Notes under the pieces: model-generated
The model's database searches: none
Seen by the model: only the letters and a program-made list of their open reading frames with translations
What the model was told of the DNA's origin: nothing
Position numbers and translations under genes: made by a program
Source of the DNA: Pseudodesulfovibrio sp. S3
GTDB taxonomy: Bacteria; Desulfobacterota; Desulfovibrionia; Desulfovibrionales; Desulfovibrionaceae
Direction of reading: 5' to 3'
Assembly: GCF_004025585.1 (NCBI RefSeq)
Contig: NZ_QTZO01000001.1
Location: 62,001-126,000, forward strand
Length of the DNA stretch: 64,000 bases
Part shown: positions 33,717 through 53,199 of the stretch, in pieces
Position numbering within the stretch: position 1 is the first letter of the stretch
Layout: each line of letters starts with the position of its first letter

Positions 33717-33739
33717 CGGCATTATGTAGGAAACGCACA
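33717..33739 (+). repeat. Left terminal inverted repeat (23 bp)
   Basis: Begins CGGCATTATGTAGG and ends AAACGCACA. Exact inverted match to 53177-53199; beyond 33739 the match stops. Confidence 0.93.
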
Positions 33740-33759
33740 TAAGCCATATTGAAATCAAG

Positions 33760-33787
33760 CATGCCCACGTCGTAAGATGTGGGCATG
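33760..33787 (+). promoter_or_regulatory. Nine-pair hairpin near transposon left end
   Basis: CATGCCCAC (33760-33768), a ten-base loop, GTGGGCATG (33779-33787). It includes the start codon (33785) of the first small gene, so could block translation from external read-through transcripts. Hairpins of this sort protect several insertion sequences from outside transcription; the role here is inferred. Confidence 0.5.
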
Positions 33788-34246
33788 TCTTTTAGAGCAC
33801 GCAAATCGCCAGTGTTAGTGGCCCTCTCCAAGAAGAGGTCTGTGTTAAGTAGAGAACTGCTAAGCCTCCAGGAACAATTGAAGCACAAGCAGGCCGAAAT
33901 CAACACACTTGATTGTACGATGTTGATGCTTGGCATTTCATGCGACATGGAACTGGCTAGGCCAAGGAAAGTCCACACGCGTACATTTCACTATGGAGAG
34001 CTGAAAAGGTTGATCATAGAGATTTTGAAGGCTTCGGATGGCCCCATGACCACAAGGCAAGTTATCGATGAAGTACGAAGGCGTAAACGCCTATTGCAAG
34101 ACTGCAAGGGGCCTGTGAGTAAAGCGCTTAGGAACTACCGACTAACTGTCAAGGTAGGCGAAACTGACACTGGCGAATCGTTGTGGACATTGAAGGCTTA
34201 CGCAGCCAAGACCAAGTCTTCTGCCCCACGATTACGTCTTGTGTAG
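33785..34246 (+). CDS. Small helix-turn-helix-like protein of the transposon left end
   Basis: 153 residues, basic. The N-terminal third (about 12-50) is a coiled-coil-like helix (SRELLSLQEQLKHKQAEINTL); the C-terminal half resembles a winged helix (KRLIIEILKASDGPMTTRQV, then KALRNYRLTVKVGE). Its last 49 bases overlap the convergent transposase gene. Start is ATG at 33785 (GTG at 33779 possible), both within a hairpin. No function recognised; accessory to transposition is a guess from position. Confidence 0.55.
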   Translation: MSFRARKSPVLVALSKKRSVLSRELLSLQEQLKHKQAEINTLDCTMLMLGISCDMELARPRKVHTRTFHYGELKRLIIEILKASDGPMTTRQVIDEVRRRKRLLQDCKGPVSKALRNYRLTVKVGETDTGESLWTLKAYAAKTKSSAPRLRLV

Positions 34247-35226
34247 TTCCAGTATCCCCGAAAGCGAGACTTTTTGCCGTTGTCTTCATCAGAGAGCATG
34301 CGTGAAAGCATATCGAAGGTGATCCGCTGGTTATCCCACCGCCTTGTGTCTTCACGGTAGGCTACTTCGTTGGCGTACAGTTCGAGATATTCAGGCCCGA
34401 CCTGGTGGGTTTGGCCACGGATGAGACGACGGAACCGGCTGAAGAACGATTCGGCCTGATTTGTGTTCTCCCCATTTGGCCCTATGAAACAAACGTCATG
34501 ATTCACTGTGGTGTGGTCGAAGCTGACCATAAGATCTGAATAACCGGAATGGCAGTCAGTAAAGATTTCGGTTCCAGGAACAATGTCTTGCTCCGCTATA
34601 TCGGTTATGTCCTCAGCCCTTTCGGTTTCGACTACATACGTTAACGTCCTGCAAGCTCCCAAACCGTCAGTACTGCGCATGCGCTCAACAATCACGCATT
34701 GCTTTGGCCGATTGGAAAGCTTCGTCTTCTCCCGACGATCTGCAACCTTGTTTGGGAACCGCTTGGACGGGTTGATGTATGCCCCATCCATTTCGACCTG
34801 TCCCTTCAGGGCTGGTTGATCATGGCGAGTTTGATGAAGCGCGTCTCTGAGCTTGTGGTAGAAAATATATGCTGTTTTGTACTGCACGCCCATGTATCTC
34901 ATGAGCTGGAGGGCAGACATGCCTTTAGCGGCATTTGCAAGGGCCACGACACCTATCAGGATCGTGCGCAACGGCAGCTTGGTGGAACCAAGCCATGTTC
35001 CGCTTGTGACTGAGAAAGTGTGATTGCAGAACTTGCAACGCCACTGTTTCCTTGCCTTAATATAGTAGTGTTCCTCGCATTCACACTGAGGACAAACCGG
35101 TTCGCCGTTCGTCTTACCCCAACGCATTTGCCGAAACAGCCCAAAGATATCCTCATCACTCATGGTGAATACCTCCGTGAGCGATAAGGTTCTGGCTTGG
35201 GCTGATAGCAAAAAATGTTGGGACAC
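34198..35226 (-). CDS. IS1595-family transposase (ISXO2-like DDE domain)
   Basis: 342 residues. The N-terminal zinc ribbon (VCPQCECEEHYYI and WRCKFCNHTFS) is followed by the ISXO2-like catalytic domain beginning near EMDGAYINPSKR, with TDCHSGYSDL and FIGPNGENTNQAESFFSRF. The start is GTG at 35226, giving the family-typical MSQHFLLSAQARTLSL opening; ATG at 35163 with GGAGGT upstream is an alternative. Intact and probably the enzyme that moves the whole element. Confidence 0.92.
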   Translation of the reverse strand: MSQHFLLSAQARTLSLTEVFTMSDEDIFGLFRQMRWGKTNGEPVCPQCECEEHYYIKARKQWRCKFCNHTFSVTSGTWLGSTKLPLRTILIGVVALANAAKGMSALQLMRYMGVQYKTAYIFYHKLRDALHQTRHDQPALKGQVEMDGAYINPSKRFPNKVADRREKTKLSNRPKQCVIVERMRSTDGLGACRTLTYVVETERAEDITDIAEQDIVPGTEIFTDCHSGYSDLMVSFDHTTVNHDVCFIGPNGENTNQAESFFSRFRRLIRGQTHQVGPEYLELYANEVAYREDTRRWDNQRITFDMLSRMLSDEDNGKKSRFRGYWNYTRRNRGAEDLVLAA

Positions 35227-35258
35227 TTCGACCTCGTTGTTTCGTTTACGAGTCTAAG

Positions 35259-35319
35259 GTTTCACATTCAGAACCATTATGTCAACATAAATCTACAACA
35301 AAAGTTTCACTTGCAGAAC
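35259..35319. promoter_or_regulatory. Paired direct repeats between divergent genes
   Basis: GTTTCAC-N3-CAGAAC occurs at 35259-35274 and 35304-35319, 45 bases apart, between the transposase and the DUF6471 gene. Spacing of about four helical turns fits two bound protein dimers. Probably an operator controlling transposase or the small gene. Confidence 0.5.
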
Positions 35320-35345
35320 TTTGGTTTGTGTTCTACTCAGTCTGT

Positions 35346-35573
35346 ATGAGTAATCCCAATGAAAAATGGCAGGAAGATTCCAGCCGAATTATCAAATCAG
35401 TTTTGGCCCGAAGCGGCGTTACCTACAGCGAACTTGTTTCCCGGCTCTCGGTGATTGGAGTTGAGGAAACGGTTCAGGGCATCAAGGGAAAACTCCATCG
35501 AGGCACTTTTAGCTTCTTTTGGGTGCTACAATGCTGCCGTGCGTTGGATATCAAAGAGCTACGCCTAGACTAG
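35346..35573 (+). CDS. DUF6471-like small protein
   Basis: 75 residues: SRIIKSVLARSGVTYSELV, then LSVIGVEETVQGIKGKL and RGTFSFFWVLQCCRALDI. This layout resembles the DUF6471 helix-turn-helix-like proteins, which are small and frequently encoded next to insertion sequences. ATG at 35346 is used; a frame back to 35328 exists. The end overlaps the convergent WYL-regulator gene by nine bases. Confidence 0.6.
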   Translation: MSNPNEKWQEDSSRIIKSVLARSGVTYSELVSRLSVIGVEETVQGIKGKLHRGTFSFFWVLQCCRALDIKELRLD

Positions 35574-36413
35574 ATCCGACCGGATCAATTTCAGCAAACC
35601 CGTATTGAGCAACACAACCTGTTGCTCTTTGGCAGGTATCTTCATCTCCTTCTGCTCTTTTTCAGTCCGGTGCAGGCCGAGTTGCTTCAATACGTAAAAG
35701 AGCATGGCTCTTCGCACTTCAAAGACAGCCTCTCCGTCTTCCATTCCATAATCCATTTCAATGGTTGTTCTCTGGTTCTCATTCAAACCAGGATGAGGCC
35801 CTATCCGGACGAAAAGGATTTCATCCCACTCCTCATCAATCTGATCTTCGATCTTCGAGTAACCACGATCGCCAGTCTCAACGATTCGTCCAAGGACGAA
35901 ATCTCTGAATTCTCCACGCAGAGAACAGTATGCTCGTACATGCCATCTAAAACCGTCATGGCCGAAGGCGTGCGGAGTAATGCGCCTCCATGTCGGCTCT
36001 GAGCTGGACATTGAGCGGTACAGGATATCAATAGACTGATCTGCAGCCATCGTTGAAAGCAATGTTCTGAGGATGTCTGTCGGGATTGCCCTTTTGGGAA
36101 CGGGAAGCCGCATCATATCCGGCATTGGGCACAAAAAACCATCATCGAGCAGAAGGTGGCCCAACACCTGGTCAGGTGTTGGATTAATAATCATCGGCAC
36201 GAAGTCTCTGGTTGGCTTGTAAACCTTGTCAGACGGATCATAGTGAGCGTTGTCAGGCGCAAGCTTCAAGTATTCCCTGATGGCTGCGGACGCTCGCTCA
36301 AGTGAGATGTCCAGATACTCGGCCATATCTTTCCTGCTGGATCTGCCAAGCCAGAAAAGGCGAGCCTCAAAAAAAGAGAGGCGCAAATAGTTACTGCTAT
36401 ACTTGACCATCAT
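35565..36413 (-). CDS. WYL-domain transcriptional regulator (CapW/BrxR type)
   Basis: 282 residues. An N-terminal winged helix (about 12-55: RLFWLGRSSRKDMAEYLDIS) precedes a WYL domain (about 120-200: DILYRSMSSSEPTWRRITPHAF, WHVRAYCSLRGEFRDFVLGRI) and a C-terminal WCX-type region. WYL proteins of this layout repress CBASS, BREX and other defence operons and are de-repressed by a ligand. It is divergent from jetA with 120 bases between them, so control of the Wadjet-like operon is the natural reading. Confidence 0.85.
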   Translation of the reverse strand: MMVKYSSNYLRLSFFEARLFWLGRSSRKDMAEYLDISLERASAAIREYLKLAPDNAHYDPSDKVYKPTRDFVPMIINPTPDQVLGHLLLDDGFLCPMPDMMRLPVPKRAIPTDILRTLLSTMAADQSIDILYRSMSSSEPTWRRITPHAFGHDGFRWHVRAYCSLRGEFRDFVLGRIVETGDRGYSKIEDQIDEEWDEILFVRIGPHPGLNENQRTTIEMDYGMEDGEAVFEVRRAMLFYVLKQLGLHRTEKEQKEMKIPAKEQQVVLLNTGLLKLIRSDLV

Positions 36414-36424
36414 AATATCCGTGT

Positions 36425-36439
36425 GTTAGAAATTCTAAC
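36425..36439. promoter_or_regulatory. Perfect 15-bp palindrome, WYL operator candidate
   Basis: GTTAGAA-A-TTCTAAC lies 12 bases upstream of the WYL regulator start and 95 bases before jetA. Placement suits autoregulation and control of the divergent defence operon. Confidence 0.6.
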
Positions 36440-36533
36440 AGTCTAATCAATTCAAACGCAGGCCAACCATCACACAAACCTTCGGGTTAGTCAATGTGGG
36501 CCCGTATTCCTTACCAAGACAAGGAACTGATTT

Positions 36534-37901
36534 ATGCAATTTGACGCCCCCCTTATCAAACTCCTCGCGATGACGGCGCGGCTGCATGACCTGTATGTGC
36601 TTGGTGGTTCCCCTTCCGAATGCTCCCAAGCCTTCGCCCCCCAAGACCGGAGACGAAACAATAGGAATGGACAATGGTTGGAGGTCGGTGCGACGATTCT
36701 TTATCTTCTCTTTCTCCGAGACGAACTCTCGCCCGAATCTTTCGTTCCTCTGGATGAAATTTCCGAACAGGTTTCACAGGATTTTCCCGTATCAAGGGAA
36801 GGCGTCCTGACCGCGCTCAAGCATTTACACACGCCTTGTCGAATGACCTTTGAGGCTTTTCGGCCGTCCTCTGTCTTCGAGCAGACCGCACTAGTCGAAC
36901 AAGCCGTGGCTGGAAGTGGTTTCCGCATTAGCATGTCCGGACGAGACCTCTTCTACCAACTGAACAGACCCTCCCGATTAGAATACACTCCTGAATTCGT
37001 TTCCATGATGGAAAAGGATCTCGCAGACGGAAAGTTGCCGCAGTTTCTTGAGAACTGTGAAAGTCTCATACAAATGATCCGGGACCACTCCCTCAAGGTG
37101 ACCAAGATCCGGGAACGAAACGCCGTCTATCAGAAATACCGAGCCGAGATTCTTGAATCCTCGGATCGCCATCTGGAGCTTCTCAAGGAACTCAGAGAAA
37201 GACTGCTTGAGATATCCAATCAATTACGCTCTCCCGCCGTTGCCCAAATGATCGAAGAATACTCACCCTGGAGTGCAAATGATCCTGACGAGATTTCGCT
37301 TTTCGAGTTGGTTTCGGCCTTGAAGAAGGTCCATGCGGCAAATGGATCGCTCATCCGAAATCTGACGCTACTCTTTCAGTCCTTCCATGATGCAAAAGGG
37401 AGTGGTGTTGCTAAGTTCAGTATCCAGCGAGTGGTAGACCATTTTTGGGAAGGGAAATTGACCGTGCTCGACATTCGAAGGGCACAATCCAGACACGGCA
37501 TATGGTCGCCCAGACATATTTGCTGCAGCCTTTACGATGTCCCTCGGAAACTGCGCCAACAGGCACTTCCCGAAAGAGATGTCGTCTTAGACAAGCTGGA
37601 ATCAACGACCGTTGGCGACGTTTTCTATCAACTCCTCTCGCAAAAGGTCGACGATGTCAGGAAAGCCCTGGCAGTCGGGCCTGTGAGACTTTCCGAAATG
37701 GTTGACGCCGGTTCCCTTTGTTTGGAGGACATCTCTGCCTCAGTGGGGGTCTGTTTTAACTCCGGCATCTTGTGCGGAGGCGACGTCGGAGAAAAGATCA
37801 TCGTGAAGAGGGCGGAGGGTGCCAAGCTGTCCATTGCATTGGGGCGGGGAAGGGTTCTGTCCTCCGATGATGTGCAACTCGAAATCGCAGAGGAGAAGTG
37901 A
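36534..37901 (+). CDS. jetA: Wadjet-like JetA (kleisin/MukF-like) subunit
   Basis: 455 residues. Soluble, alpha-helical: an N-terminal winged-helix-like part with LEVGATILYLLFL and SREGVLTALKHLHTP, a helical middle (about 170-260) with coiled-coil character (DRHLELLKELRERLLEISNQL), and a C-terminal beta-rich end. This is the kleisin-like protein expected beside an SMC ATPase. Primary similarity to described JetA is too weak to assign by eye; the call rests on order (A-B-C-D) and partner genes. ATG 36534 has AAGGA eight bases upstream. Confidence 0.7.
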   Translation: MQFDAPLIKLLAMTARLHDLYVLGGSPSECSQAFAPQDRRRNNRNGQWLEVGATILYLLFLRDELSPESFVPLDEISEQVSQDFPVSREGVLTALKHLHTPCRMTFEAFRPSSVFEQTALVEQAVAGSGFRISMSGRDLFYQLNRPSRLEYTPEFVSMMEKDLADGKLPQFLENCESLIQMIRDHSLKVTKIRERNAVYQKYRAEILESSDRHLELLKELRERLLEISNQLRSPAVAQMIEEYSPWSANDPDEISLFELVSALKKVHAANGSLIRNLTLLFQSFHDAKGSGVAKFSIQRVVDHFWEGKLTVLDIRRAQSRHGIWSPRHICCSLYDVPRKLRQQALPERDVVLDKLESTTVGDVFYQLLSQKVDDVRKALAVGPVRLSEMVDAGSLCLEDISASVGVCFNSGILCGGDVGEKIIVKRAEGAKLSIALGRGRVLSSDDVQLEIAEEK

Positions 37902-37902
37902 G

Positions 37903-38724
37903 ATGCGCGGATGGGAAATAGGCTTGGTGTTCGCCTTCTTGTCGGACCAACGGATGATTCGTTCGGCAGCGGAGCAGGGACAGCGCCTACGGAAGAACGA
38001 GCAGGATCTGGCCAAGTTCCTGGAATATGAAGCGACCTCGGAAGAGAAGGCATGTCTCGACCATTTTCTCCAGGCACAAGGGTTCCGGCTTCATCGATAC
38101 GATTCCTACGATATGCCCGGCATAAAGCGGGATCAATATGTCTTTCTCCTCCTACGAGACGGAGAGGGGGTCTTGACGCCCTGGGCTGATGCGGAAGAGG
38201 CCGTGGATTGCGTCCGACATCGCCACGGCACGTCCAGCGAACCCAAGGATCATGCAAGAGTGTGGCTTTGCCAAATATGGTTCTCCATGCTGTATCTTCA
38301 ATACCCCAAACTGGGCCGGAGCTTCAGCGAGGTCTCAAGGTATCAGGAGGCCGCGTTTACACGCGATCATCTTGCGGACGCCATCCGGGAGACTCTGGAT
38401 AGTCGGCGGCAGGAAAACGTTGCGGAACCGTCCCTGGCCAGGACGATCTTGCTTGATTCCGAATCCCCTCGCATCAGCGACAGGGTTCGCTCCTTTCTAC
38501 AGTACATGGTCAAAATTGGGCACCTTGTGGAGGTTGAGAAGAACGTTTTCCGGCAGACGCTGCTCGCATCGGCCGAACTTGGGGTCAACTTCAATGACGG
38601 CCTCGGTCTGTTGGTTGATCTGGACCCTGCGGAGGAGGAAGATGCTCCCATTTCGATGAGGCACACCGAACAAGCCTTTGAATTGGCCGATAACGATGAA
38701 ATCGGCCAAGAACAGGAGATGTAA
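37903..38724 (+). CDS. jetB: Wadjet-like JetB (MukE-like) subunit
   Basis: 273 residues, start ATG at 37903 one base after the jetA stop, with GGAGAAG just upstream. Helical with probable winged helices (EVSRYQEAAFTRDHLADAIRE and ISDRVRSFLQYMVKIGHLVE) and an acidic C-terminus. Equivalent to the kleisin-associated MukE/JetB that loads onto the SMC. Name given from operon position. Confidence 0.7.
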   Translation: MRGWEIGLVFAFLSDQRMIRSAAEQGQRLRKNEQDLAKFLEYEATSEEKACLDHFLQAQGFRLHRYDSYDMPGIKRDQYVFLLLRDGEGVLTPWADAEEAVDCVRHRHGTSSEPKDHARVWLCQIWFSMLYLQYPKLGRSFSEVSRYQEAAFTRDHLADAIRETLDSRRQENVAEPSLARTILLDSESPRISDRVRSFLQYMVKIGHLVEVEKNVFRQTLLASAELGVNFNDGLGLLVDLDPAEEEDAPISMRHTEQAFELADNDEIGQEQEM

Positions 38725-38728
38725 AACT

Positions 38729-41700
38729 ATGAGCGCTTTGATCAATCGTGTTCAGGTGGTGAACTTCATTCGCAATAAATACGGCGAAAAGTGGTCCCCT
38801 CGTTTCCGTGAGCAAACGTATGACTTCGAGGAGAACTCTTCCATCGTCCAGGCCGTAAACGGCGTAGGCAAGACGACGATCTCAAATGCCTTCAACGCCC
38901 TGTTGAGCCGCAATAAAGAACTTCTCAAGATGGTTCGAAGGGCGATGGCCCCGGACAAATTCGATGCGTATTCCCATTTCCGGGTAGAATTCATTTCCAA
39001 AAGATTTCTCGGGCTGGTCTCCACCCCAGGGGAAACCCATGTTTTCGGAATGTACGGGACCCAAAGTAAAGGCTCGATCCAGTTCTACCACTATGCAGGG
39101 AAGCTGGAGGATCTCCCCCTCTGTGAACGGAACGAGCATGGCGACTTGACCATCTATTCGAAGAAGCGGTTCAATGATCTCATTTCAGAGTTTCCGGGGA
39201 TCTTGAAGCGAAACCAGCGGTGGGACGAATGGCGGGCTGCCATTGGTCAAATGGTTCCCAACCACATCGTCGAACGCATGGCCAGGTTCCAACTTCGCGG
39301 AGGCGGAGAGGATCACGACAACAACCTCTTCCAGGTGAAGAAGATCCGTGGTGAGCGTCTGGATCAGACCTTCTTCTGGGAAGTCCTTGCTCCAGAAATC
39401 ATGGCCAACCCCATGGGGGCCTTTGCCGAGGAAGACGAATACCATTTCGAGGACACCATCCTTCAGACGGCCGGTCGCGCCGTGGCAGCGCAGATTGCGG
39501 CCGAGGAAGAGATGGAGGGGCTGGCCAGGCAAAATGAGGCCCTGGGACATCTGGATGCCTTGGTACTGTCCGGAGCACAGGTGGTCGACTCCAAGAAAAG
39601 GCTGTCGGGACACCTGGACAAGCTTCGACAGGCCATGGCCGCGACGAGGTACATCGTGGATGAAGCGCTTCTGCCGGGCTTCCCCCGTTTTGTCTCCAGC
39701 GGTGAGAACAAGGTGGACCTGTTGGTGACCAACATGGTGGTAGATCCCAACCTCGGCGTTCTGCTTCGCGACCGTGGCCTGGCGGAGCTATTAGGCAAAG
39801 AGGCAAAGCACGTAAATCGAGATGCGAGTAGCCGTGGCATAAATGGGGCCGTTTCGCCGCAAGTCATTGAAATTATTGTGGACCAAAAATTTCTAAAAGA
39901 CGAAAGGGGGCGTTCGCCACGATATTACTCCCAAAAGCATTGCTTAACATTTCTTAGTGCGTGTACCGACTCCTATCTCCCCGCTCCGCGAGAAGAGCTT
40001 GTCGAAATCATTTGCAAGGCGTTCCGGCACTTCGCGACAAAGGTGGACAGCAACCCGTTCAGGCAATTTGTTCGGAGGCTGGGCAATGACACCGCCAAGG
40101 CGGAGCAGCTCCTCAAGGCGGAATGGGAACTCGCTGACTCTCTTCGCAAGGAAGTAGAAGGCTTGGAGCAGGGGTTTAAGGAGTTCAAGGAAAACGAAGG
40201 TCTTTACCGAGAAATGGTCGATTCCGGACTGTTCTCGACCGCAGAACTCGCTGAACCGGCCGGGACGGGCAAGGCCCTTGAAGACCAGAAACAACAGGCC
40301 ACGGCCAAACTTGAAGCCCTTCGAGAAAAGCAGCTTCGACTCCAGCCCGTGCATACCCTGTATGAGAGATTCATCGCGGCCTTCCCGGATTCGTCCCCAA
40401 CACAAAAAAAGGACGAATGGCGAGCAAGGGAGACCTATCTTAAAGCCGCAGAGGCCATCGCCGCAGAATTGGACCGCACCGCTCACGCAACCGAAACAAC
40501 GGCCCTCAAGGCCCTAGGGGAGGCACAGAGGAAGGAGACGACCGCTCAGACCCACCATTCCCGCCTTGACGAGCTAAATCGGGATTCGGCTCCATTTTAT
40601 GAGGCCTTCCCAAATGAAAGCCCTGCGGGATTTGCTGGTCGCGCTCGTAATGAAATCTCGGTGAGCGAGAAAGGACTGGGTGATCTTCAGGGTCAGATGA
40701 AGGAGATCAAAGACCAGGTCGACCACCTGGACAAATGGGTTGCAAACCACCCCGGGGAGACTCCTGCCGAGGCTGTTGCCCGACTCTTGACGGAACAGCA
40801 GGAACTCGCCGAATCGCTTCGCTTGAAACAGGCGGAACTAGGCACGGCAAAGCAGGATCTTGCGTTTCTCTCTCAGAAGAAGATCGCGCCTGGACCCGAC
40901 GTGGCGGAAGCATTGACGGCCGGGGCGGTCATCTGCGGGTTTACCTCCCTGCACGAAGCCATCAGATCTTTCGAGTTGTCCGACGAGCGCCGCGTAGAGC
41001 TTTTCACACTATTTTCGACTGTCCTCTTTGCACCGGTAGTTCCTTCGCTTGAGAGTGTGTCAGCACTGCTGGAGCTGTTCGAAGAGCGACGGCTCTCCGT
41101 GCCGGTCTTTCTCAAGGACGAGCTCGAATCATTCTGCATCGATGGAGAACTGCATTCCGAGGCCGTAAACGGGATTGTGTACACCTACCTCGTCGGCAGA
41201 CGGTCCTTCGCCGTCGAATGCCTGCTTGACCCGGGCAAACTCGCCGCCGAACGAGAGCGGCTTAAACGTTTTGTGGCCTCGCTTGAGATCGAGGAGGCGA
41301 AGCTCAAGGAGCTTTTAAGGGAAGCATCCGACGATAGCCCGGCGCTTGTCTCGGCAAGGAAGGCCAAAGACGCCGTGAACGCGAAGAGCAGATTTGAAGA
41401 GATGTTGCAGGCGCAGAGCCGGATGCAAAAGAGTCACGATGCGCTTTTGGAAAAGTATACCGAGAAGGTGCTTTACGCCTCCCAGCGCGCCGAACGACTG
41501 GAAACAGAAGGGGGCAAAGAAGCCCTGGCTAAAGCCAAGGCAGCACTTCTCACGGCTCAAAGGCAGCTTGAGAACGCAAAAAGTGATTTGGCCGCCGCCG
41601 AGCGAGAGCGGCCAGCCGCCTCCGAAGCACTCCGGAAGGCAAAGGGGGAATTGGAAACTTTCCTGGAAGGGCCCTCAAAACCGTTCAGGCAAGACATTGA

Positions 41701-45074: not shown

Positions 45075-45085
45075 GGAGTCTCCTC

Positions 45086-45493
45086 ATGAGCAAGCACATA
45101 GCCATGGAAATGAACTACCCTGGATGGATCGAAAAGCTCATCGAGAACAAGGATGAGATCCAGGCAAAAGAAGCCGTGAGAGCCGAGTTTGAAAAACTTG
45201 TGGAGGGGCTTGAACTGGCGTTGCCGCAAACGGCAATTTGTGAATCTCACATGCAGGGAGATTGTCGAGAGTTCAAGAGGCTGAGCTTATTTGTAAAATA
45301 TCACTCAACCTACTGGATTAGAGAGGGCGGCTGCAGTCTGTGCAGCAAGCGCCACTGGCTTGCGACATGGTGCATTCTGCCTGGTCACTTTGAAGAAGAG
45401 ATCGAGATAGCCAAACAAGTGGCTGAAGACTTTGACCGGCATTATCCTTATCTGGGCATCCTTTCGATGCCCTATGAATGGTGGCAGATATGA
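45086..45493 (+). CDS. Small cysteine-containing protein of unknown function
   Basis: 135 residues, no recognised family. Acidic N-terminal half; GGCSLCSKRHWLATWCILPGH in the middle gives CxxC plus one more cysteine, possibly metal-binding together with C near residue 53. AAGGAG lies seven bases before ATG 45086. Follows the phosphoesterase by 11 bases and overlaps the next gene by ATGA, so part of the same operon. Confidence 0.6.
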   Translation: MSKHIAMEMNYPGWIEKLIENKDEIQAKEAVRAEFEKLVEGLELALPQTAICESHMQGDCREFKRLSLFVKYHSTYWIREGGCSLCSKRHWLATWCILPGHFEEEIEIAKQVAEDFDRHYPYLGILSMPYEWWQI

Positions 45494-46686
45494 CTTTACC
45501 AGCGACATATTACGATTTTATTCGAGAAGTGCGCCCCTTTGTGCTTGATCTGACAGAGCGGGATGCCAAGGACTTGAGGCGCAGGCCAGAGCCACCGACC
45601 TCAATCCAAAGCGTTGACGATTACGACAGCCGCTTTGAAGAGTGCGTTGAACAGGTTGATTTGGGTATTCTGAATTATGCAGCACAAGAAACTGGGTACA
45701 GCATTGAACAACTCAGACCACATCTGCATGATGCGTTACCACAGATGCGTGCAGAGTATGCAAGCTTGTATGGCATCGTGAATCAGGAATACCATGTGGC
45801 TCTAAATTTTGCCTTGGCAGGTAAGAAAACTTTCCATTTTAGCGACAACCTTGCTGAACACTTGGCAAATACGGAGATCAACCTCAAAGGTCCTCTGATT
45901 CAATTACCATTCCCGACCTGTCTCTTTACCTTTACGTCAAGGACAGTTGTGGATGCCATGCACAGCATAAATGGTAAAGAAAATCATGGCCTAGATTACT
46001 CGGCTCCAATTTCAGCCTTCCTCACCATGCTTCCTGCGGACGAAGGTTTTGTTGGCAGAAAGCTTATTATCTGTGCATGGCACGCACGTTGCCCGGACAC
46101 ATCTTATTTGATGCTTAAGCGAGAACTGTTTTTAGGGGACGACTGGACATTGGAACAAGCTTTACACACAGACTGGGAAACGCTTACGCCGGACAATCTC
46201 GGGCCAGGAATCAGTGTTGACATTGAAAGCAAGGAAATAAACTCAGAACACGACGATGTTTTTTATACCGATGGCCTTGCGTTCTATCGGATCGTGTTGA
46301 ACGCAGTGTTGTACTTGTCTTCCGATGAGGTTGAGTTGATTCCCCAGGACAGTCCTCGTAAAGAAATGGAAGCACGCCTTGAAGGGCTTTCATCGAAGTC
46401 CAAAAGGAGAAAGCTTCTCCAAAGGGCTGAGCGACATTCCAGCCTTGATTACAACGAAGTAGGCGCTTCAGTTGGAACCATTGTAATCAAGAAAGACAAC
46501 GCTGAAGATGGATCTGGGCCAGATATCCCAAAAGGCAAGCCTCTGGTCCGTTTCATGGTGCGTGGTCATTGGCGGAATCAGCCTTGTGGCCCTGCTCGGC
46601 AAGACCGAAAGCTAACCTGGATTCGGCCGTATTATAAGGGGTCTGATCTCGCAGCCACGATTAACAAACCATATGTGGTGAAATGA
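45490..46686 (+). CDS. Unknown protein with C-terminal VRGHWRNQ motif
   Basis: 398 residues, predicted cytoplasmic. N-terminal half is helical and beta mixed (TYYDFIREVRPFVLDLTERD). The C-terminus, FMVRGHWRNQPCGPARQDRK then WIRPYYKG, resembles the conserved end of a family of phage and mobile-element proteins of unknown role, which includes the AcrVA2-like anti-CRISPR group; that link is tentative. Start at 45490 gives an ATGA overlap; ATG 45478 is also in frame. Last gene of the jet operon before a 118-base gap. Confidence 0.55.
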   Translation: MTLPATYYDFIREVRPFVLDLTERDAKDLRRRPEPPTSIQSVDDYDSRFEECVEQVDLGILNYAAQETGYSIEQLRPHLHDALPQMRAEYASLYGIVNQEYHVALNFALAGKKTFHFSDNLAEHLANTEINLKGPLIQLPFPTCLFTFTSRTVVDAMHSINGKENHGLDYSAPISAFLTMLPADEGFVGRKLIICAWHARCPDTSYLMLKRELFLGDDWTLEQALHTDWETLTPDNLGPGISVDIESKEINSEHDDVFYTDGLAFYRIVLNAVLYLSSDEVELIPQDSPRKEMEARLEGLSSKSKRRKLLQRAERHSSLDYNEVGASVGTIVIKKDNAEDGSGPDIPKGKPLVRFMVRGHWRNQPCGPARQDRKLTWIRPYYKGSDLAATINKPYVVK

Positions 46687-46804
46687 TTTCAGTTCGGTGC
46701 TATGGTCGAGTCCGTAACCAATGCCCAAGCATCTCAATCTTATCCTCAAGAGGAGGCATGACATGACATTTCTATAGGTAAAATAAAACCATAGGAGGTC
46801 TGTC

Positions 46805-47350
46805 ATGCCTGACTATCGCTGGTCGCACTACCTCACCGCTCCGTGGGAGCTGGTGGATGAATGGTATCGTGCGGTCAAATTCGGTATCCGTAATCTGTTC
46901 CAGTGGTTTCCTGTCGTGTGGCCCGACCGGCACTACACGTCCTGGGGATTGTTCAACGTCATGCGCTACAAGCTCGTGCTGATGCAGCGCGAGTTGAGCC
47001 GTAATCCGGACTACGTGGGCGCTGAGTGCGACCTGCACTTGATGCACGTCTGCGAATTGCTCATCGACCGCTACTTCGCTGACGAGTACAGCGAGCATTG
47101 TTTCAAGTGCCATGAGGAAAAGTGGGGCGAAATGCGTAGCTTCTGGGAGCCGTCCTATGACCACGAAACCGGCGACATCGATCCGGATTACTGCATGTCG
47201 TTCACGGATTGGCCAAACGCCACCACCCCAGAGTTGGAGATGAAGGCTTGGAAGGAACTGCGTGCCTGTTATGAGCATGAGCACAAGCTCGCAGATCAGG
47301 ACATCCAGTACCTGTTCAAGCTCCTGAGCAAGCACTGCCGCCGTTGGTAG
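46805..47350 (+). CDS. Unknown phage-type protein
   Basis: 181 residues, aromatic- and tryptophan-rich (DYRWSHYLTAPWELVDEWY, SFWEPSYDHETGDIDPDYC). No domain recognised; similar unannotated proteins occur in phage genomes. AGGAGGT directly precedes the ATG, a strong ribosome site. It is monocistronic, with its own 118-base upstream region and the terminator at 47361-47385 behind it. Base composition is closer to the host than the Gabija-like genes that follow. Confidence 0.55.
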   Translation: MPDYRWSHYLTAPWELVDEWYRAVKFGIRNLFQWFPVVWPDRHYTSWGLFNVMRYKLVLMQRELSRNPDYVGAECDLHLMHVCELLIDRYFADEYSEHCFKCHEEKWGEMRSFWEPSYDHETGDIDPDYCMSFTDWPNATTPELEMKAWKELRACYEHEHKLADQDIQYLFKLLSKHCRRW

Positions 47351-47360
47351 GCAAAAAGAA

Positions 47361-47385
47361 AGGGACGGTCTGATTGACCGTCCCT
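47361..47385. terminator. Bidirectional terminator between the unknown gene and the helicase gene
   Basis: AGGGACGGTC-TGATT-GACCGTCCCT perfect ten-pair stem. The minus-strand tail is TTCTTTTTG (complement of 47352-47360), so it best serves the helicase gene. Confidence 0.85.
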
Positions 47386-47399
47386 TCAACCAACAATCT

Positions 47400-49274
47400 C
47401 TACGCTATATCAGCAGCCGTAAATACGGCTTCAGCAGAAAAGAGCCTAGCGCCCTTCACTTTCTCAACCGCACTTTCAACATCTTGCGTAAAGAGCACAA
47501 CAACAAGATCCTTCAGAGCTCTAGAGCAACAGACATAAAACAAGCGGCGAGTGCGATCGATAGAAGAATCAATTCCGTTGGCCAAATTGTTTTTATCGGT
47601 GGCTGTCAGTTCTTTTATCCCCAATAGTTTCTCGTATGAAAATAATTTATGGGCACTTCCTTCTTCTTCGTCCAGGACAACTAGCACTCTTTCAAACTCG
47701 GCTCCCTTTATTCCTTGATGGGTATCATATGGGGATTCTTCGTTTATGTATCTATGGTATCCCCACAGTTCTTTGGCTTGGCAATTATAGTAATTAGCAA
47801 GGGCAGCTTTGTCCTTTTCCAACTCCTCTGGGCTAAACTCCCCACCTATCGGAACCAACGCAAACCTATCGTCCAAATCGACCAGGTTATTGTCGTCGGC
47901 ATATTTTAAAACGTCTGAAACAGTAGCCTTATCGTCAAGTAACAACTGCGCCAATGAACTAACGTTCTCTTTGATTGCTGCCAACAATTCTGGCTTATTG
48001 GGAGCTTTCTCAAATTTCGCTTTTGACAGCAATGGGCATTTCTGCCGGAGCAGTTGCATTACTGAAAAATTGTCACCATCAGTAAATGCTGCAACTAGCG
48101 GCAGCAAGTAATCTCTGAATGGCCGCAAAGACCAATGCGAGTCTTCTGTGAATCCAATGCTAAAGGACTCCGGAGTTCTGTCATTGAAGGCTGCATAAAG
48201 ATTCGCAAAGTCGAGTCGTTTTGCCGCCATTCGATGAACAAGCACTAGAATCTTTACATCCGATTCCTCTGTGTCCTGGGTCCACAACGGATCATTTCCC
48301 TCTTGGGCCAGCCACTCTCGAACCTGTTGTAAGTAGGCTCCTCTATTCTCATCAGCAGGAAGGATGACAAGTTGCGCAGTGCCATCCGCCTGTTCTTTAC
48401 CAGGGATTTGAACCAAATCGCCCACGTCTGCACGGATATTGTTTATCACTGACAACACGCTGTCCGGGCTTCGGAAATTCTCAGGCTTTGTAACTTTTTC
48501 CCAAGTGTTCTCTTGACGGATATCACCAACTCCGGTCGCATAAATCTTTTGCATCGGGTCGCCAAAAAAGCCTAAACAAAAGTTCTTTGATTCTTGGATA
48601 AAAATAGCCCTTAAGGCCTCCACAAAGACTTCGAAAGTGTCTTGGCTCTCATCAACAAAAAAAAATGGATATTTACGAGCAACGATATTTCTAAAAAGAG
48701 TACTTCCCAGCATGATTTCAGGAACAAGTTTGATTATGTCTGAATGCCCCAATATGCCATTGGCATAATCACTTCCTGTCCCATAATCGAATTGATCAAT
48801 GCTGCCTATGACACCACAAAGCGCTTTGTAGTGCTCAATTTTTTCGGAATCTTTATCTTTTGTCTTTTGCTGAACTTTAGGACCATAGTTTGCCTGTTTT
48901 TCAGTGAGCTCATCAATGTCCAGACCAACTTTGTTTTCAACCCACTTCTTGATGTCGCTCTGAAAAGGCCTCACCAACTCCCAAAGAAAACTATGAATCG
49001 TTGAAACATGAAAAAGGGGGTCGTTTCCGACGTCCTTCCATATCTCTTGAGTCGCAACCTCGGTGTAGGTAATACATGCCACTTTTTGACCATTTTTTCG
49101 TAAAGAGCCACCGAATGCATTCTTGATGTGTTGCAAGGCTTTAATCAGCGAGGTTGTCTTGCCCGAACCGGCACCAGCAACCATGCTGAAGCTAACAGGT
49201 GGGATTGAGTCAAGATATTCCCTAATGCTGACGTCGGTAGGAGTATCAGGCTTCCCAGCTCTACTGATCAGCAT
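47400..49274 (-). CDS. GajB-like UvrD/Rep-type helicase of a Gabija-like system
   Basis: 624 residues. SF1A helicase motifs: AGAGSGKTT (33-41), FFFVDESQD (about 207), GFFGDPMQKIY, HQGIKGAEFERVLVV (motif V-like), and RRLFYVCCSRA (motif VI-like). Longer than the described GajB (about 490), with an insert before motif II (QQKTKDKDSEKIEHY region). In Gabija GajB senses or uses nucleotides and works with GajA against phage DNA. Translationally coupled to the OLD nuclease gene (14-base overlap). Confidence 0.8.
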   Translation of the reverse strand: MLISRAGKPDTPTDVSIREYLDSIPPVSFSMVAGAGSGKTTSLIKALQHIKNAFGGSLRKNGQKVACITYTEVATQEIWKDVGNDPLFHVSTIHSFLWELVRPFQSDIKKWVENKVGLDIDELTEKQANYGPKVQQKTKDKDSEKIEHYKALCGVIGSIDQFDYGTGSDYANGILGHSDIIKLVPEIMLGSTLFRNIVARKYPFFFVDESQDTFEVFVEALRAIFIQESKNFCLGFFGDPMQKIYATGVGDIRQENTWEKVTKPENFRSPDSVLSVINNIRADVGDLVQIPGKEQADGTAQLVILPADENRGAYLQQVREWLAQEGNDPLWTQDTEESDVKILVLVHRMAAKRLDFANLYAAFNDRTPESFSIGFTEDSHWSLRPFRDYLLPLVAAFTDGDNFSVMQLLRQKCPLLSKAKFEKAPNKPELLAAIKENVSSLAQLLLDDKATVSDVLKYADDNNLVDLDDRFALVPIGGEFSPEELEKDKAALANYYNCQAKELWGYHRYINEESPYDTHQGIKGAEFERVLVVLDEEEGSAHKLFSYEKLLGIKELTATDKNNLANGIDSSIDRTRRLFYVCCSRALKDLVVVLFTQDVESAVEKVKGARLFSAEAVFTAADIA

Positions 49275-51516
49275 CTGTCACCTCAACATCAGTCCGAGGT
49301 TCGCCCTGCAAGCTTTCGCCCGAGAAAACCAGATTTGATGCTAACCACTTCAGCCCTTCATCAATGTATACAGGCACGTCCCACCCTTCACCTTCAAGCA
49401 AAAGGCCAAGCGCAAAATTTGTTTTTTTAAATGAGTTACCGCTCACTCGTATGAAGAGCTTTTGGGCAACTTCATCCAGTGTAAACCGATTCATTTTAGT
49501 GATCACTCTCAGGCCAAGATGCTTCCGGCTTAAGTCCTGGCTCCATTCCAAGTTTTCCAAAGCAAAAGTTTCTTCTAGGGTTCGCCCGACCAATTTCTCC
49601 TCTTGCCCTTCCCATGCGACTGTTTGCAGAGTCTGATAGGCGATACGGACTTTCGCAGGACAATCTTCTGACAACACAATCTCTTTCTTTGCTTCATCAA
49701 CTGCAAGAAGATCGGCTATATTGGTAAGGCCGGGGATCCACTGCTTCAAAGCTTCATTGGAAGTGACTGCTCCTTCCTCCGAAGTCCTACATGCGCCTGC
49801 CTTGATCTCCTCATCTCCTTCCTCAGCCTTTTCCTCGATATCCTTTTTGAGCCTCACGCTATCAATATCCGTAATCACCAACGTAGTTATCCCCAGGAAG
49901 TCAATCAACTCTTTGAAACGATGAGCATAGGCTCCACCGACTTCCAGAATGCTTAAATATGCAGATCTTAGCTCTTTAGCAGATTTTTCAATCATAATTG
50001 GCAGCAACAACCTTTCAACATTGCCTTCAACCAAGATTGCTCCATCAGCGAAAAACAGATCACAGTGGGTCAATTTCATATATCGCTGGAGGAACTCCAA
50101 AGCTTCATGACGCGCTGTGTCGATATCATCGTAACCCTCGATTTCAACATCATGAATCTTAAACAACGATAAGTTCAGAACAGTTGATTTTTGTTCAATG
50201 GCCGGGCAGATGCTCCTGCGGAAATATCGGATAGGCGTAAAGCCACTTTCATATATAATATGAGGAGAATGAGTCGTCACAACCAACTGGCTTTCGTAAC
50301 CGAAATCATCTTGGCCAGGTTGTCTTAAAATATTCTGGACCTGACGGATGAACACCTGCTGAAGCTGGACATGAAGGTGAGCCTCGGGCTCTTCGACAAA
50401 AACTAAATGTAGTGGAGGACGGACTTCAGAGGCTATCCAATGTTCATGAAAATCCAACAATTCCACAGCCATATATATCAAGTTCTTGTAACCCAATCCA
50501 TTGTAGTGATCTGGCAAAGAGAAATTCTGTTCAAAGCCACTAGGAAAATTCGGATTATTGATAGTATAATGTACTTGAGCACCTTGGTTCAGGAGGCTTT
50601 TGGGATTGAGAGCCGATTTGATTTCTAGTTGAGGGTCATCAAATCCAGGATACTTTAGCTTAGCTAAGCTATCCATCATCGGTTTAAACACACTTTTCAG
50701 GTGTGAATTCAAACGTTCCTCTGAATCAACCAGAGCCTTCATAGCCTCGTGATCATCTTCATGTTTTTCTAAATTACGTTCATAGAATCGACTAAACCGA
50801 GTGGAAAGATTTTCGGCTCGACCACCGGAGGAGTGTTCATCTGTCAGATGTCGCTGTGCATTAAGAAAATCAACCCTTAACAAAGAGCCAACAACCTTCG
50901 ATCCCGATTTTGTTCCAGTGCCTCCAAGTGGAGCCGGCTGGTACCCTGCTATGGGACTAAATTTTTCATCAAATTGTTCATGATCGAGAACATAGTAAAA
51001 AAGGGCATACTCTGAATCTAGTTGCTTCTTTAGGAAATCAGTGAGTGTTTGGGGCCAAGGGCGGTACTTGGAGTCCTCCTTTATTCCTTCTTGAGCTTTA
51101 GTTATTGCCTCATTGAATCGATCAATCAGTCCAGCCGGATCTTTGGGTGCATATTCGATCCTCACCCCAATAGGAGCATCTTTCCAGTCCAAGCTTGGGA
51201 GTAGGTCGATCACCCTATGAATATCCTGAGACTCAACCTCAAACCAGAGGTCAAGACTGATTTTTGGCATCTCCAGTTCTTCACCCTTATCTCCCCAGTT
51301 GACTCCTATGATGTCAAAAGTTTTCCAGCACTCGACATGAAAATCATAAAGATTAAACCGCTCCTTAGATTGGCCTAAGAAGAGTTTAAAGGCCTGCGTT
51401 GCTGATGTTTTGCCACTGTTATTAGCTCCTACAAAAATCGAGGTCTTGGGATCCAGTTCAACATGAACATCTTTGAGTCGACGAAAGTTCTTTAATTGAA
51501 AAGATTTTATCAGCAT
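49261..51516 (-). CDS. GajA-like OLD-family ATPase/TOPRIM nuclease
   Basis: 751 residues. ATPase part: Walker A FVGANNSGKTSA (28-39), a signature-like YNGLGYKNLIYMAVELL, Walker B LVFVEEPEAHLH (about 374), and H-loop TTHSPHI (about 414). TOPRIM part: ILVEGNVERLLLP (EG motif, about 495) and LVITDIDS (DxD, about 549). Described GajA is about 580, so this one has extra C-terminal sequence. The start at 51516 (MLIKSFQLKNFRRLKD) has AAGGAT nine bases upstream. With the adjacent helicase it makes a class-2 OLD pair. Confidence 0.85.
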   Translation of the reverse strand: MLIKSFQLKNFRRLKDVHVELDPKTSIFVGANNSGKTSATQAFKLFLGQSKERFNLYDFHVECWKTFDIIGVNWGDKGEELEMPKISLDLWFEVESQDIHRVIDLLPSLDWKDAPIGVRIEYAPKDPAGLIDRFNEAITKAQEGIKEDSKYRPWPQTLTDFLKKQLDSEYALFYYVLDHEQFDEKFSPIAGYQPAPLGGTGTKSGSKVVGSLLRVDFLNAQRHLTDEHSSGGRAENLSTRFSRFYERNLEKHEDDHEAMKALVDSEERLNSHLKSVFKPMMDSLAKLKYPGFDDPQLEIKSALNPKSLLNQGAQVHYTINNPNFPSGFEQNFSLPDHYNGLGYKNLIYMAVELLDFHEHWIASEVRPPLHLVFVEEPEAHLHVQLQQVFIRQVQNILRQPGQDDFGYESQLVVTTHSPHIIYESGFTPIRYFRRSICPAIEQKSTVLNLSLFKIHDVEIEGYDDIDTARHEALEFLQRYMKLTHCDLFFADGAILVEGNVERLLLPIMIEKSAKELRSAYLSILEVGGAYAHRFKELIDFLGITTLVITDIDSVRLKKDIEEKAEEGDEEIKAGACRTSEEGAVTSNEALKQWIPGLTNIADLLAVDEAKKEIVLSEDCPAKVRIAYQTLQTVAWEGQEEKLVGRTLEETFALENLEWSQDLSRKHLGLRVITKMNRFTLDEVAQKLFIRVSGNSFKKTNFALGLLLEGEGWDVPVYIDEGLKWLASNLVFSGESLQGEPRTDVEVTDADQ

Positions 51517-51659
51517 TCGCAGTAATCCTTCATAGGGTTCTCCAAAAATAATAAGCAGTTGCCTCACCATATGCCTATTCAGCTTAACACTCAACAGAAT
51601 GTTTGATAAATGTATTTAAGTATGACGGTGTTCAAATTCTACAAAACGAAGGAATGGTC

Positions 51660-52460
51660 ATGAAATTTGGAGCTACGACTGAAAAATTTGTCTTGAATTG
51701 TTCAAATGGAGAGACAACCCTGCGAAGCCTATCAATCGCGTATAGATGTCGAATAAAAAAACTTAGAAAAGTTTTAAAAAGCATAGACATTGAAGCTATA
51801 TACAAGAAGAATTTTGATGATATCGACATACAGCAACCAGAGTATTTGTATAATTACGTTGAGCAGCATTTAGGCACCCCAAAGAAGACAAGCTCTCGAT
51901 ACTGGTTCCACCTTACAAGGACAAAGAAGAATAACATGTTTGAAGAAGGGCTTTATCCGCTTTCCAATGTCCTCGATACCCTTTGGAACACCCTTGAATC
52001 AATATTTGATGATGCGGAAATCAGAGACAGGCTCAGAGCAATGCGCGACGGAAGCGTCAAAAGTGATCACTATAACCATAAGAAGCGCAGCGAGGTTGAC
52101 CAAGGCCCATTTGGAATTGTTGTTCGAGAAGTCGCATTTCACCTTAAAGACCTGGGGCATCACGATTACTTGGAATTTCCAGAAATATTACAGGACATCT
52201 GCGATGGCTATTACAAGCAGCACAATGAGATGATCTACGACAAAGTTATTCAGGCGTTGCACCCATGTATAGTCGCAATAAAAAGCAATCACGAGGCGAG
52301 CAAAGCTTGTATCATTGGAGCCTTGTACTATGCGTACACACACGCCAATAATAAGCCTGTAAGCGGAGCGTCTGTCATTGACGTAAACTGTGGAGGCCAG
52401 CCTGTTCCTAGTCCCAATGAGAGACCCCCCAGCTCTGCTGGGGCGGCCATAGAAGTTTGA
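51660..52460 (+). CDS. Unknown protein next to the Gabija-like pair, 3' end probably altered by IS200 insertion
   Basis: 266 residues, no recognised family, A+T-rich. Helical with charged segments (RLRAMRDGSVKSDHYNHKK); the part about 150-190 could bind metal or nucleic acid (HHDYLEFPEILQD). Start ATG 51660 has GAAGGA six bases upstream; longer forms begin at 51654 or 51603. The last dozen residues (RPPSSAGAAIEV) are coded by the IS200 left-end hairpin, so the original C-terminus is probably lost. Divergent from the OLD nuclease gene. Confidence 0.55.
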   Translation: MKFGATTEKFVLNCSNGETTLRSLSIAYRCRIKKLRKVLKSIDIEAIYKKNFDDIDIQQPEYLYNYVEQHLGTPKKTSSRYWFHLTRTKKNNMFEEGLYPLSNVLDTLWNTLESIFDDAEIRDRLRAMRDGSVKSDHYNHKKRSEVDQGPFGIVVREVAFHLKDLGHHDYLEFPEILQDICDGYYKQHNEMIYDKVIQALHPCIVAIKSNHEASKACIIGALYYAYTHANNKPVSGASVIDVNCGGQPVPSPNERPPSSAGAAIEV

Positions 52461-52478
52461 CTTATGCGGGAGTAGCAT

Positions 52479-52527
52479 GAAGCCTCCCCCCTTGTGAGCT
52501 GCTCTAAGTGAGCAAGGGAGAGGCTTC
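52479..52527 (+). promoter_or_regulatory. Ribosome-site-sequestering hairpin of IS200-type tnpA
   Basis: GAAGCCTCCCCCCTTG (52479-52494) pairs nearly fully with CAAGGGAGAGGCTTC (52513-52527). The right arm contains GGGAGAGG, the ribosome site of tnpA (ATG 52529). The same arrangement keeps IS200 TnpA translation low in Salmonella. Confidence 0.75.
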
Positions 52528-52528
52528 A

Positions 52529-52960
52529 ATGAAGTGCAATTCAAGCCTATGTCATACAAAATGGGACTGCAAGTACCATATCGTTTGGATACCTAAGTAT
52601 CGGCGTAAGGTGCTGTTTGGAAAGCTGAGAAACTACTTGGGAGATGTGTTCCATAAGTTGGCAGCACAACGCGAAAGTAAAATATTGGAAGGGCATCTGT
52701 GTGTCGATCATGTGCACATGTATATTGCAATTCCGCCTAAATATGCTGTGTCCCAAGTGGTTGGGTACATAAAGGGCAAAAGTGCGATTCACATAGCTCA
52801 TGAAGTCCAAGGCCGCGCAAGAGGGTTTGCAGGGCAGAACTTCTGGGCGCGTGGTTATTATGTCACGACAGTGGGTCGGGACGAAAAGGTGATAAGAGAA
52901 TACATCCGTAAGCAAGAGCACGAAGACAAGCGGATAGAACAATTGAAATTCCGCCTTTAG
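52529..52960 (+). CDS. tnpA: IS200/IS605-family TnpA transposase (HUH, Y1)
   Basis: 143 residues. Opening MKCNSSLCHTKWDCKYHIVW and KYRRKVLFGKL are typical; the HUH motif is HVH in the VDHVHMYIAIPP stretch; the catalytic tyrosine is expected in IREYIRKQEH. Complete. Single-strand, peel-and-paste transposition. ATG at 52529 is preceded by GGGAGAGG. Confidence 0.92.
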   Translation: MKCNSSLCHTKWDCKYHIVWIPKYRRKVLFGKLRNYLGDVFHKLAAQRESKILEGHLCVDHVHMYIAIPPKYAVSQVVGYIKGKSAIHIAHEVQGRARGFAGQNFWARGYYVTTVGRDEKVIREYIRKQEHEDKRIEQLKFRL

Positions 52961-53104
52961 GCGGTTCTTAAAGCCACTTTGAGTGGCTCACAAACTCAAG
53001 CCCCCGGCTTTGCCGGGGGTACTATGACTTCGGAAATTGTTGACATCTCTTTTGTTTAAGGAGTCATACGATTAGTGTGTTCACCAGGGGGTGCATAACC
53101 CAGC

Positions 53105-53145
53105 AAAAAAGCGAAAGGTCCCCTTGCATCCTGCAAAGGGACCTT
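53105..53145 (-). terminator. Terminator inside the transposon right end
   Basis: Arms AAGGTCCCCTTGCA (53115-53128) and TGCAAAGGGACCTT (53132-53145) make a near-perfect stem. On the minus strand it is followed by TTTTTT (complement of 53105-53110), so it stops transcription arriving from cheV. Confidence 0.75.
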
Positions 53146-53176
53146 CTACGTTGTACTGACTTGATATTATTTATTT

Positions 53177-53199
53177 TGTGCGTTTCCTACATAATGCCG
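53177..53199 (-). repeat. Right terminal inverted repeat (23 bp)
   Basis: Reverse complement identical to 33717-33739 over all 23 bases; reads TGTGCGTTTCC...ATGCCG on the plus strand. Confidence 0.93.

Follow-up and report, generated by a model that had tools for sequence, protein, structure and literature searches.

A 19.5-kb IS1595-family transposon with Gabija and Wadjet-like cargo between hypE and cheV of Pseudodesulfovibrio sp. S3

The element and its insertion site

The DNA analysed here, referred to as the window, is a stretch of 64,000 nucleotides from Pseudodesulfovibrio sp. S3 (contig NZ_QTZO01000001.1, positions 62,001 to 126,000). Between hypE and cheV it contains an element of 19,483 bp (33717-53199), present as a single copy in the genome, in which an IS1595-type transposase gene, two other core genes and 13 cargo genes, among them a Gabija pair and a putative Wadjet-like operon, are enclosed by inverted repeats and a target duplication. 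An earlier note on this DNA had proposed that the segment is a unit transposon. This is borne out by the ends, the duplication, the undamaged transposase gene, the single copy and the element-free hypE-cheV region of related genomes, and with a probability of about 0.9 the segment is one passenger-carrying IS1595 transposon whose own DDE transposase inserted it in one piece between hypE and cheV.

The left end is formed by the 23-bp sequence CGGCATTATGTAGGAAACGCACA (33717..33739, + strand; 26 bp at one mismatch), of which the right end is the exact reverse complement (53177..53199, - strand). Immediately outside lie two direct, strandless copies of the octamer TTATGCGG (33709..33716 and 53200..53207). 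The perfect 23-bp inverted repeats and the exact 8-bp direct repeat described in the earlier note are thus confirmed by direct reading and, for the inverted repeats, by a repeat search (seed 12, minimum 18), in which the sole inverted pair in 32500-54500 has 26-nt arms that are 96% complementary and 19,431 nt apart. Genome-wide (3.68 Mb, up to 3 mismatches) the 23-mer end occurs only at these two sites. A pair of 12-bp inverted ends bordered by 8-bp direct repeats occurs once in the window and never across 20 mononucleotide shuffles, and the likelihood of a chance origin of ends and duplication is negligible. The 8-bp duplication, taken in the earlier note as a trait of the IS1595 family, is found here and in the related elements described below. 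The guanine-cytosine (GC) content of the element is 0.498, that of the remaining window 0.576.

Three core genes lie next to the left end. The transposase (34198..35226, - strand; 342 amino acids, aa) is assigned to the IS1595 type by homology and by its DDE_Tnp_IS1595 and zinc-ribbon Pfam domains (119 and 52 bits, over the cut-offs), in agreement with the earlier assignment, and its gene is undamaged. C45, C48, C64 and C67, as well as D147, D224 and E259, which we take to be the catalytic acidic residues, are invariant across the window protein and four relatives. The genome contains two other transposase matches, 30% and 22% identical and of partial coverage. Convergent with the transposase gene is that of accessory protein A (33779..34246, + strand; 155 aa), with relatives in 92 of the 97 related loci surveyed below. 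Their genes invariably lie downstream of the transposase gene, and 101 of 114 open reading frames (ORFs) are convergent with it. In the AlphaFold model (52 sequences, mean predicted local distance difference test score, pLDDT, 88.4), a long N-terminal helix of 40 residues is followed by a winged helix, for which Foldseek returned generic winged-helix matches, none at E <= 0.001. The protein may bind DNA, perhaps the element ends or the transposase promoter. The other core gene that recurs is oriented divergently to the transposase gene. It encodes an 81-aa DUF6471 protein (35328..35573, + strand; Pfam and relatives) and is present at 58/97 related loci, always upstream of the transposase and divergent. 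An insertion sequence (IS) in the strict sense has a single transposase gene and little else; with its 13 cargo genes, the element is therefore classed as a passenger-carrying transposon (transporter IS, tIS) of the IS1595 family.

The insertion site was compared in 24 genomes of the same genus with a cheV match (L009-L032). In 22 of them hypE lies in the same locus as cheV, 88-1168 nt away and without an element, the gaps between aligned ends being 88-123 nt in 11 genomes, 279-546 nt in 7 and 1050-1168 nt in 4, in which other coding sequence probably intervenes. The loci of the remaining two (L023 and L025) are short and do not include hypE. Subtraction of the element and one octamer from the hypE-cheV gap of the window leaves about 80 nt.

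Defence genes and other cargo

Besides the transposase, which is confirmed, the earlier note had counted about 15 cargo genes; the count is instead 13, including a nested IS200-type gene, plus the three core genes. It had also described two anti-DNA systems, of which Gabija is clear by model. GajA, an OLD-type ATPase/TOPRIM nuclease (49261..51516, - strand; start placed at residue 27 of the ORF ending at 51594), and GajB, a UvrD-type helicase of 624 aa (47400..49274, - strand), are encoded side by side, match their PADLOC models with 866 and 744 bits over near-full length and contain the corresponding Pfam domains. Judged by these matches the pair is complete and without notable difference from known Gabija.

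The Wadjet-like system is borne out in part. A WYL-domain regulator (35565..36413, - strand; 282 aa; PADLOC/Pfam and homology) adjoins and faces four co-directed genes in the order of a Wadjet operon, with a putative SMC-type ATPase in third place and a TOPRIM-type nuclease last. JetD (43261..44379, + strand; 372 aa) is supported by model, through PADLOC JetD (4e-21) and Pfam JetD_C, and by motifs: LVENP and WGDLD, and the TOPRIM-type acidic residues E197, D272 and D274, are invariant in three homologues. Its comparison with PDB sequences gave only an insignificant match, to MksG (E 0.31). The JetC-like putative ATPase (38729..43264, + strand; about 1511 aa, residue 18 of the ORF that opens at 38678 being taken as the start) is tentatively assigned by its size, by motifs and by homology to JetC of another such operon; it has a Walker A motif NGVGKT and an ABC-type C-terminal head with DGLFSNLS, as read from the sequence, and matches only LmuB, weakly (2.7e-6). 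The JetA-like protein (36534..37901, + strand; 455 aa), a candidate kleisin, and the JetB-like protein (37903..38724, + strand; about 273 aa, residue 29 of the ORF that opens at 37819 being taken as the start), a candidate KITE protein, have no significant PADLOC or Pfam match and are identified by position and by homology to other such operons, JetA being 26% identical to its counterpart on a Gallionella element. PDB sequence matches for JetA and JetC were absent or insignificant, and the AlphaFold model of JetB was unusable (pLDDT 41.7). In contrast to known Wadjet systems, JetA, JetB and JetC match no Wadjet model, a WYL gene adjoins the operon and the JetC C-terminus reads DGLFSNLS, so that the operon is, in part, identified as a divergent Wadjet-like WYL-JetABCD in which only JetD matches a Wadjet model. 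DGLFSNLS is read throughout this JetC branch (window 38729-43264, L230:4595-9604, L219:7971-8915). In ABC ATPases the Walker B aspartate is usually followed by an acidic residue, and the branch differs at this position.

A second transposon of the same group carries a similar operon. In a Gallionella metagenome genome (L099/L230), an element of 12,666 bp with identical 26-bp ends and the duplication CAAAAAGA has as its recognised cargo WYL, JetA, B, C and D and a phosphoesterase. Identities to the window proteins are 39% for WYL, 36-40% for JetD, 28% for JetC, 27-28% for JetB and 26% for JetA, and the phosphoesterases adjoining the two Jet operons have no recognisable relationship. The Jet module is inverted relative to the transposase between the two elements, and the nearer relatives of the Gallionella JetB, JetA and JetC (60%, 50% and 40%) are not those of the window but those of an operon in another genome of Gallionella's order (L242), which has no recognisable ends in the 20 kb around it; JetD does not discriminate (41% to L242 vs 40% to the window). 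Because of the inversion and the closer L242 operon, two independent captures of WYL-JetABCD are the simplest reading of the sequences, and a probable one. JetD relatives are rare: they were found in 1/395 genomes of the phylum, the window's own (E <= 1e-12), in 6/389 genomes of Gallionella's order, that Gallionella included (E <= 1e-20), and in 2/72,556 plasmid records, in which JetD and a remnant of JetC are located close to a Tn3-family transposase. Searches of viral contigs for JetC and JetD, and of phage records for JetD, found no relatives. In the Pseudomonas aeruginosa plasmid pPUV-6 (L219), a C-terminal remnant of a same-branch JetC and JetD lie by a Tn3-family transposase and a mercury-resistance region.

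The other cargo genes are all on the + strand. A calcineurin-like phosphoesterase (44376..45074; Pfam) overlaps jetD by 4 nt and is followed by proteins without assigned function in the ORF and Pfam scan, of 135 aa (45086..45493), 402 aa (45478..46686) and 181 aa (46805..47350). The 402-aa protein has a 51% homologue close to a Tn3-family transposase on a Citrobacter plasmid, and the strand of the 181-aa protein was chosen by us over an opposite-strand ORF. Beyond Gabija lie a 285-aa protein, also without assigned function (51603..52460), with homologues in 767 plasmid records, and, by the right end, the nested IS200-type Y1 transposase gene (52508..52960; Pfam). The label 'HEPN family nuclease' that appears near a plasmid homologue of the 285-aa protein was rejected, as it belongs to a neighbouring overlapping gene.

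Related transposons and their cargo

A first survey covered 197 related genomes, together with twelve regions of at most 20 kb surrounding close transposase matches. It yielded six elements of 2.1-7.3 kb with matching ends and exact 8-bp duplications; genome G007 has two elements with both ends but no exact duplication, and G045 one end only. End pairs at L074 and L077 (15/20 matching) were judged chance or other elements, and the ends at L051, L053 and L054 differ from those of the group. Within the family, a close transposase (E <= 1e-45) is present in 11/288 genomes, the window's own included, and the degenerate end pattern (up to one mismatch) in 15/288; the reversed pattern was found zero times among the matches listed.

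The wider survey examined 97 related-transposase loci, i.e., the best 80 of 289 in a genome collection plus 17 from a viral collection, which by their titles belong to Desulfovibrionales, Beta-, Gamma- and Alphaproteobacteria, Campylobacterota and a few others. L080 (on the contig of L072) as well as L093 and L097, which nearly duplicate L091 and L095, had been removed ahead of the count; repeats among the 97 are L109/L159 on one contig and the mutually similar L167-L169. At 52 of the 97 loci the transposase is flanked by ends (17-22/22 matching) with an exact 8-bp duplication, whereas in the control, in which the right half of each locus was reversed but not complemented, this was the case for 0/97. 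The earlier note had suggested looking for further copies of the ends that enclose other cargo, and this test was positive many times over. The strict end pair with duplication was not found at 45 loci, at many of which the contig or the 10-kb flank stopped, and ten end pairs without exact duplication (with L069 and L070) were excluded. The 61 delimited elements, of which five come from an added search, have the end consensus CGGnATTATGTAGCAnncGCACaaag and a duplication that is A+T-rich at its middle. They range from 1,586 to 19,483 bp with a median of 5,285 bp in a survey biased against large elements by its 10-kb flanks; the window element is the largest, followed by those of 15.5, 13.9, 12.7 and 12.0 kb.

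For defence content, the largest cargo ORF was scanned in 57 of the 61 elements (all but the window element, L155, L091 and L067), with PADLOC in 17 (E <= 1e-20) and Pfam in 40 (E <= 1e-5). Defence-model matches (restriction, PglX, Ssp, Mokosh, GmrSD, McrBC and Abi) were obtained in 26/57. PADLOC matched 14/17, namely type IIG (L231, L111, L114, L090, L117, L128), type III (L095, L096, L233), PglX/methylase (L110, L094, L123), SspC (L119) and Mokosh (L232), and gave no match for L133, L134 and L230, the last of which adds its Wadjet-like system by homology, outside the 26/57. Among the 20 larger elements scanned with Pfam, 11 have restriction, DNA-methylase, GmrSD or McrBC domains; among the 20 smaller ones, Abi_C was found in one and 16 are without any match. 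Matches to HEPN (L068), Schlafen/AlbA_2 (L234), RhuM, ImmA-like, Bro-N and amidase domains were not counted as defence. As a control, the largest flanking ORF at the same 20 larger loci, i.e., 20 of the 57 and by Pfam only, gave 0/20 for defence (one UvrA has a passing AAA_21 match), compared with 11/20 for cargo (one-sided Fisher p = 7e-5); the PADLOC set and the smaller elements fall outside this comparison. Related cargo recurs and the elements are therefore not independent. Counted by single-linkage clusters (E <= 1e-10), 26/57 becomes 12/43 and 11/20 becomes 7/16, the latter vs 0/20 flanks giving a one-sided p of 0.0014. ORFs were called mechanically, and at least one pick, that at L078, is in our reading a shadow ORF over a cytosine-methylase-like frame, so that the defence counts are probably low.

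Cargo is shared (ORFs of at least 150 aa, E <= 1e-10) by only 49 of 1,711 pairs among 59 elements, and by 0/28 pairs among the eight elements of Desulfovibrionaceae; by sequence comparison, the cargo of the group is exchangeable. A phosphoesterase-type cargo protein is common to L111:3225-4622 and L230:12787-13554 (39% identity), which carry different defence systems.

Origin, mechanism and relation to known elements

The anatomy of the transposon can be read directly from the DNA, while the act of transposition is inferred. Several observations weigh against transposition of the segment as one defence-carrying unit. The genome contains no second copy of the element, and the element is far larger than its relatives (19.5 kb vs a median of 5.3 kb). 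The GC content of the Jet part (0.544) differs from that of the Gabija part (0.439), so that the cargo was probably assembled stepwise and the present unit may have moved only once. Defence activity is predicted from homology, JetA and JetB being confirmed by neither model nor structure. In addition, the octamer TTATGCGG is absent, on both strands, from the hypE-cheV spacers of all 22 relatives. The earlier note had expected element-free relatives with one octamer at the site and had regarded a shared hypE-cheV segment without it as breaking the unit-transposon reading; the element-free arrangement was found in 22/24 relatives, but the octamer in 0/22 spacers. We do not hold this to refute the reading, because the spacer, which contains a terminator-like hairpin, aligns poorly between species.

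The GC-mosaic cargo and the nested IS200-type gene would also suit a defence island that grew in place through insertions unrelated to one another, one side being occupied by an IS1595 element and the second end being decayed or a chance match. Such an origin is extremely improbable and was rejected on the identical 23-bp ends, which have only two sites in the genome, the exact 8-bp duplication, the element-free hypE-cheV region of relatives and the dozens of same-build elements elsewhere. The single copy, and a size that is the largest of the 61 delimited elements, speak instead for an element that, after a single transposition as a unit, has become immobile through its size or a silent transposase. 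We consider this possible but somewhat unlikely, since four elements of 12.0-15.5 kb in the same group also have exact duplications, and a recent insertion is suggested by the perfect ends, the exact duplication and the lack of damage to the transposase and accessory genes. An integrative and mobilisable element would be comparable to MTnSag1 and tISCpe8, which according to passages of PMC5704250 have a transposase of the same family, 25-bp ends and 8-bp repeats. This is very improbable here and was rejected, because no relaxase or conjugation gene was recognised by Pfam among the 16 element proteins, several of which have no assigned function (oriT was not searched for). Movement of the element between cells must therefore rely on other vehicles, i.e., hitch-hiking.

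For the unit transposon that we favour, the transposase would, as in its family, recognise the 23-26-bp ends, cut or copy the unit and join it to a target with an 8-bp stagger. The group is widespread and is built from a common core (transposase, accessory protein A and often DUF6471) and a middle bay for exchangeable cargo, frequently defence. Wadjet systems block small plasmids (passages of PMC12287153), and by analogy the Wadjet-like operon is predicted to act on small circular plasmids by extruding and cutting them. The predicted target of the Gabija pair is phage DNA, which it would cut. Repression of a defence island has been described for the WYL-domain protein BrxR (PMC9122601), and the WYL protein here may therefore control the Jet operon.

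Elements of the ISNha5 group span 3.5-7.9 kb, vs 19.5 kb here; the window element may resemble this group. In the passages concerned, ISNha5 is one of seven IS1595 groups (PMC8101967) and a tIS with a transcription-regulator passenger (PMC11891212). The window element shares with it an IS1595 transposase, short ends, an 8-bp duplication and passenger genes, and differs in carrying two defence systems. Tn7-like transposons duplicate 5 bp of target, compared with 8 bp here. They are likewise delimited and carry restriction systems, Gabija and JetD-type Wadjet across hosts (passages of PMC8649781), whereas the window element has a single IS1595-type DDE protein, simple 23-26-bp ends, no fixed attachment site that could be seen and no TnsA/B/C-type protein among its 16 proteins (Pfam). 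As for the mobilisable elements, passages of PMC5704250 report a circular intermediate of MTnSag1 in Escherichia coli, and a title cited there describes tISCpe8 as a lincomycin resistance element.

IS1595 elements with passengers have thus been described before (passages of PMC11891212 and PMC5704250). Among the top-ranked titles of the open-licence PMC literature, none was found that treats IS1595-type transposons as vehicles for defence systems. Defence carriage is not reported in the IS1595 passages of PMC7371123, PMC10667641, PMC9148166, PMC3339403, PMC6211672, PMC11092175 and PMC6579920, and PMC12242098 does not mention IS1595. The view in the earlier note that no other such element is this large and carries both systems stands as to the unusual size and double cargo, but its passenger-carrying relatives are closer than was implied and defence cargo is not unusual among them. 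The kind of vehicle is known, whereas its size here, the pairing of two systems and the richness of the group's cargo in defence genes are new.

With odds slightly below even, we propose that the subgroup forms a class of transposons dedicated to moving defence genes, with members in Desulfovibrionales, in Beta-, Gamma- and Alphaproteobacteria and further afield. In this class accessory protein A (often with DUF6471) would support the mobilisation of large, exchangeable immunity cargo; the unrecognised cargo, including WYL-JetABCD as an undescribed Wadjet type, would then amount to a list of new defence systems. For the standing question of how defence islands move, the element offers a simple delimited vehicle of one DDE transposase and 23-bp ends. 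Because its boundary is readable, the cargo is definable gene by gene, which allows inference from the vehicle ('guilt by vehicle') rather than from the neighbourhood. The transposition of a 12-20-kb unit and the immunity role of unnamed cargo between the same ends become directly testable.

Individual relatives show further arrangements. In one Gallionella genome, two different elements (L087:381-11989 and L232:1033-14903) share the same duplicated octamer and lie within the loop of two copies of one palindrome (GTTACCTTTCTT-GGCAAGAC-AAGAAAGGTAAC), and this repeat may be an insertion target. A preference for hairpins at insertion sites was not detected in 122 near vs 114 far flanks (p = 0.78) or on the stronger side (61 vs 54, p = 0.42). 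The 1.6-kb element L234:518-2103 has matching ends and the duplication ATTAATCC, no transposase and one Schlafen/AlbA_2-type gene, and thus represents a non-autonomous cargo element. The contig of L113:1-5119 starts and stops exactly at the two element ends, as expected of a repeated or circular element, and at L073:3335-8762 and L121:8411-8420 two elements abut with a single 8-bp repeat between them. In Pasteurellaceae, the elements L131, L133, L137, L140, L142 and L155 contain two related transposase ORFs inside one end pair. Finally, the Muribacter muris genome (L143, G730) contains 38 end-like sites (18 forward and 20 reverse, up to one mismatch), several of them at contig edges, and thus harbours an amplified relative.

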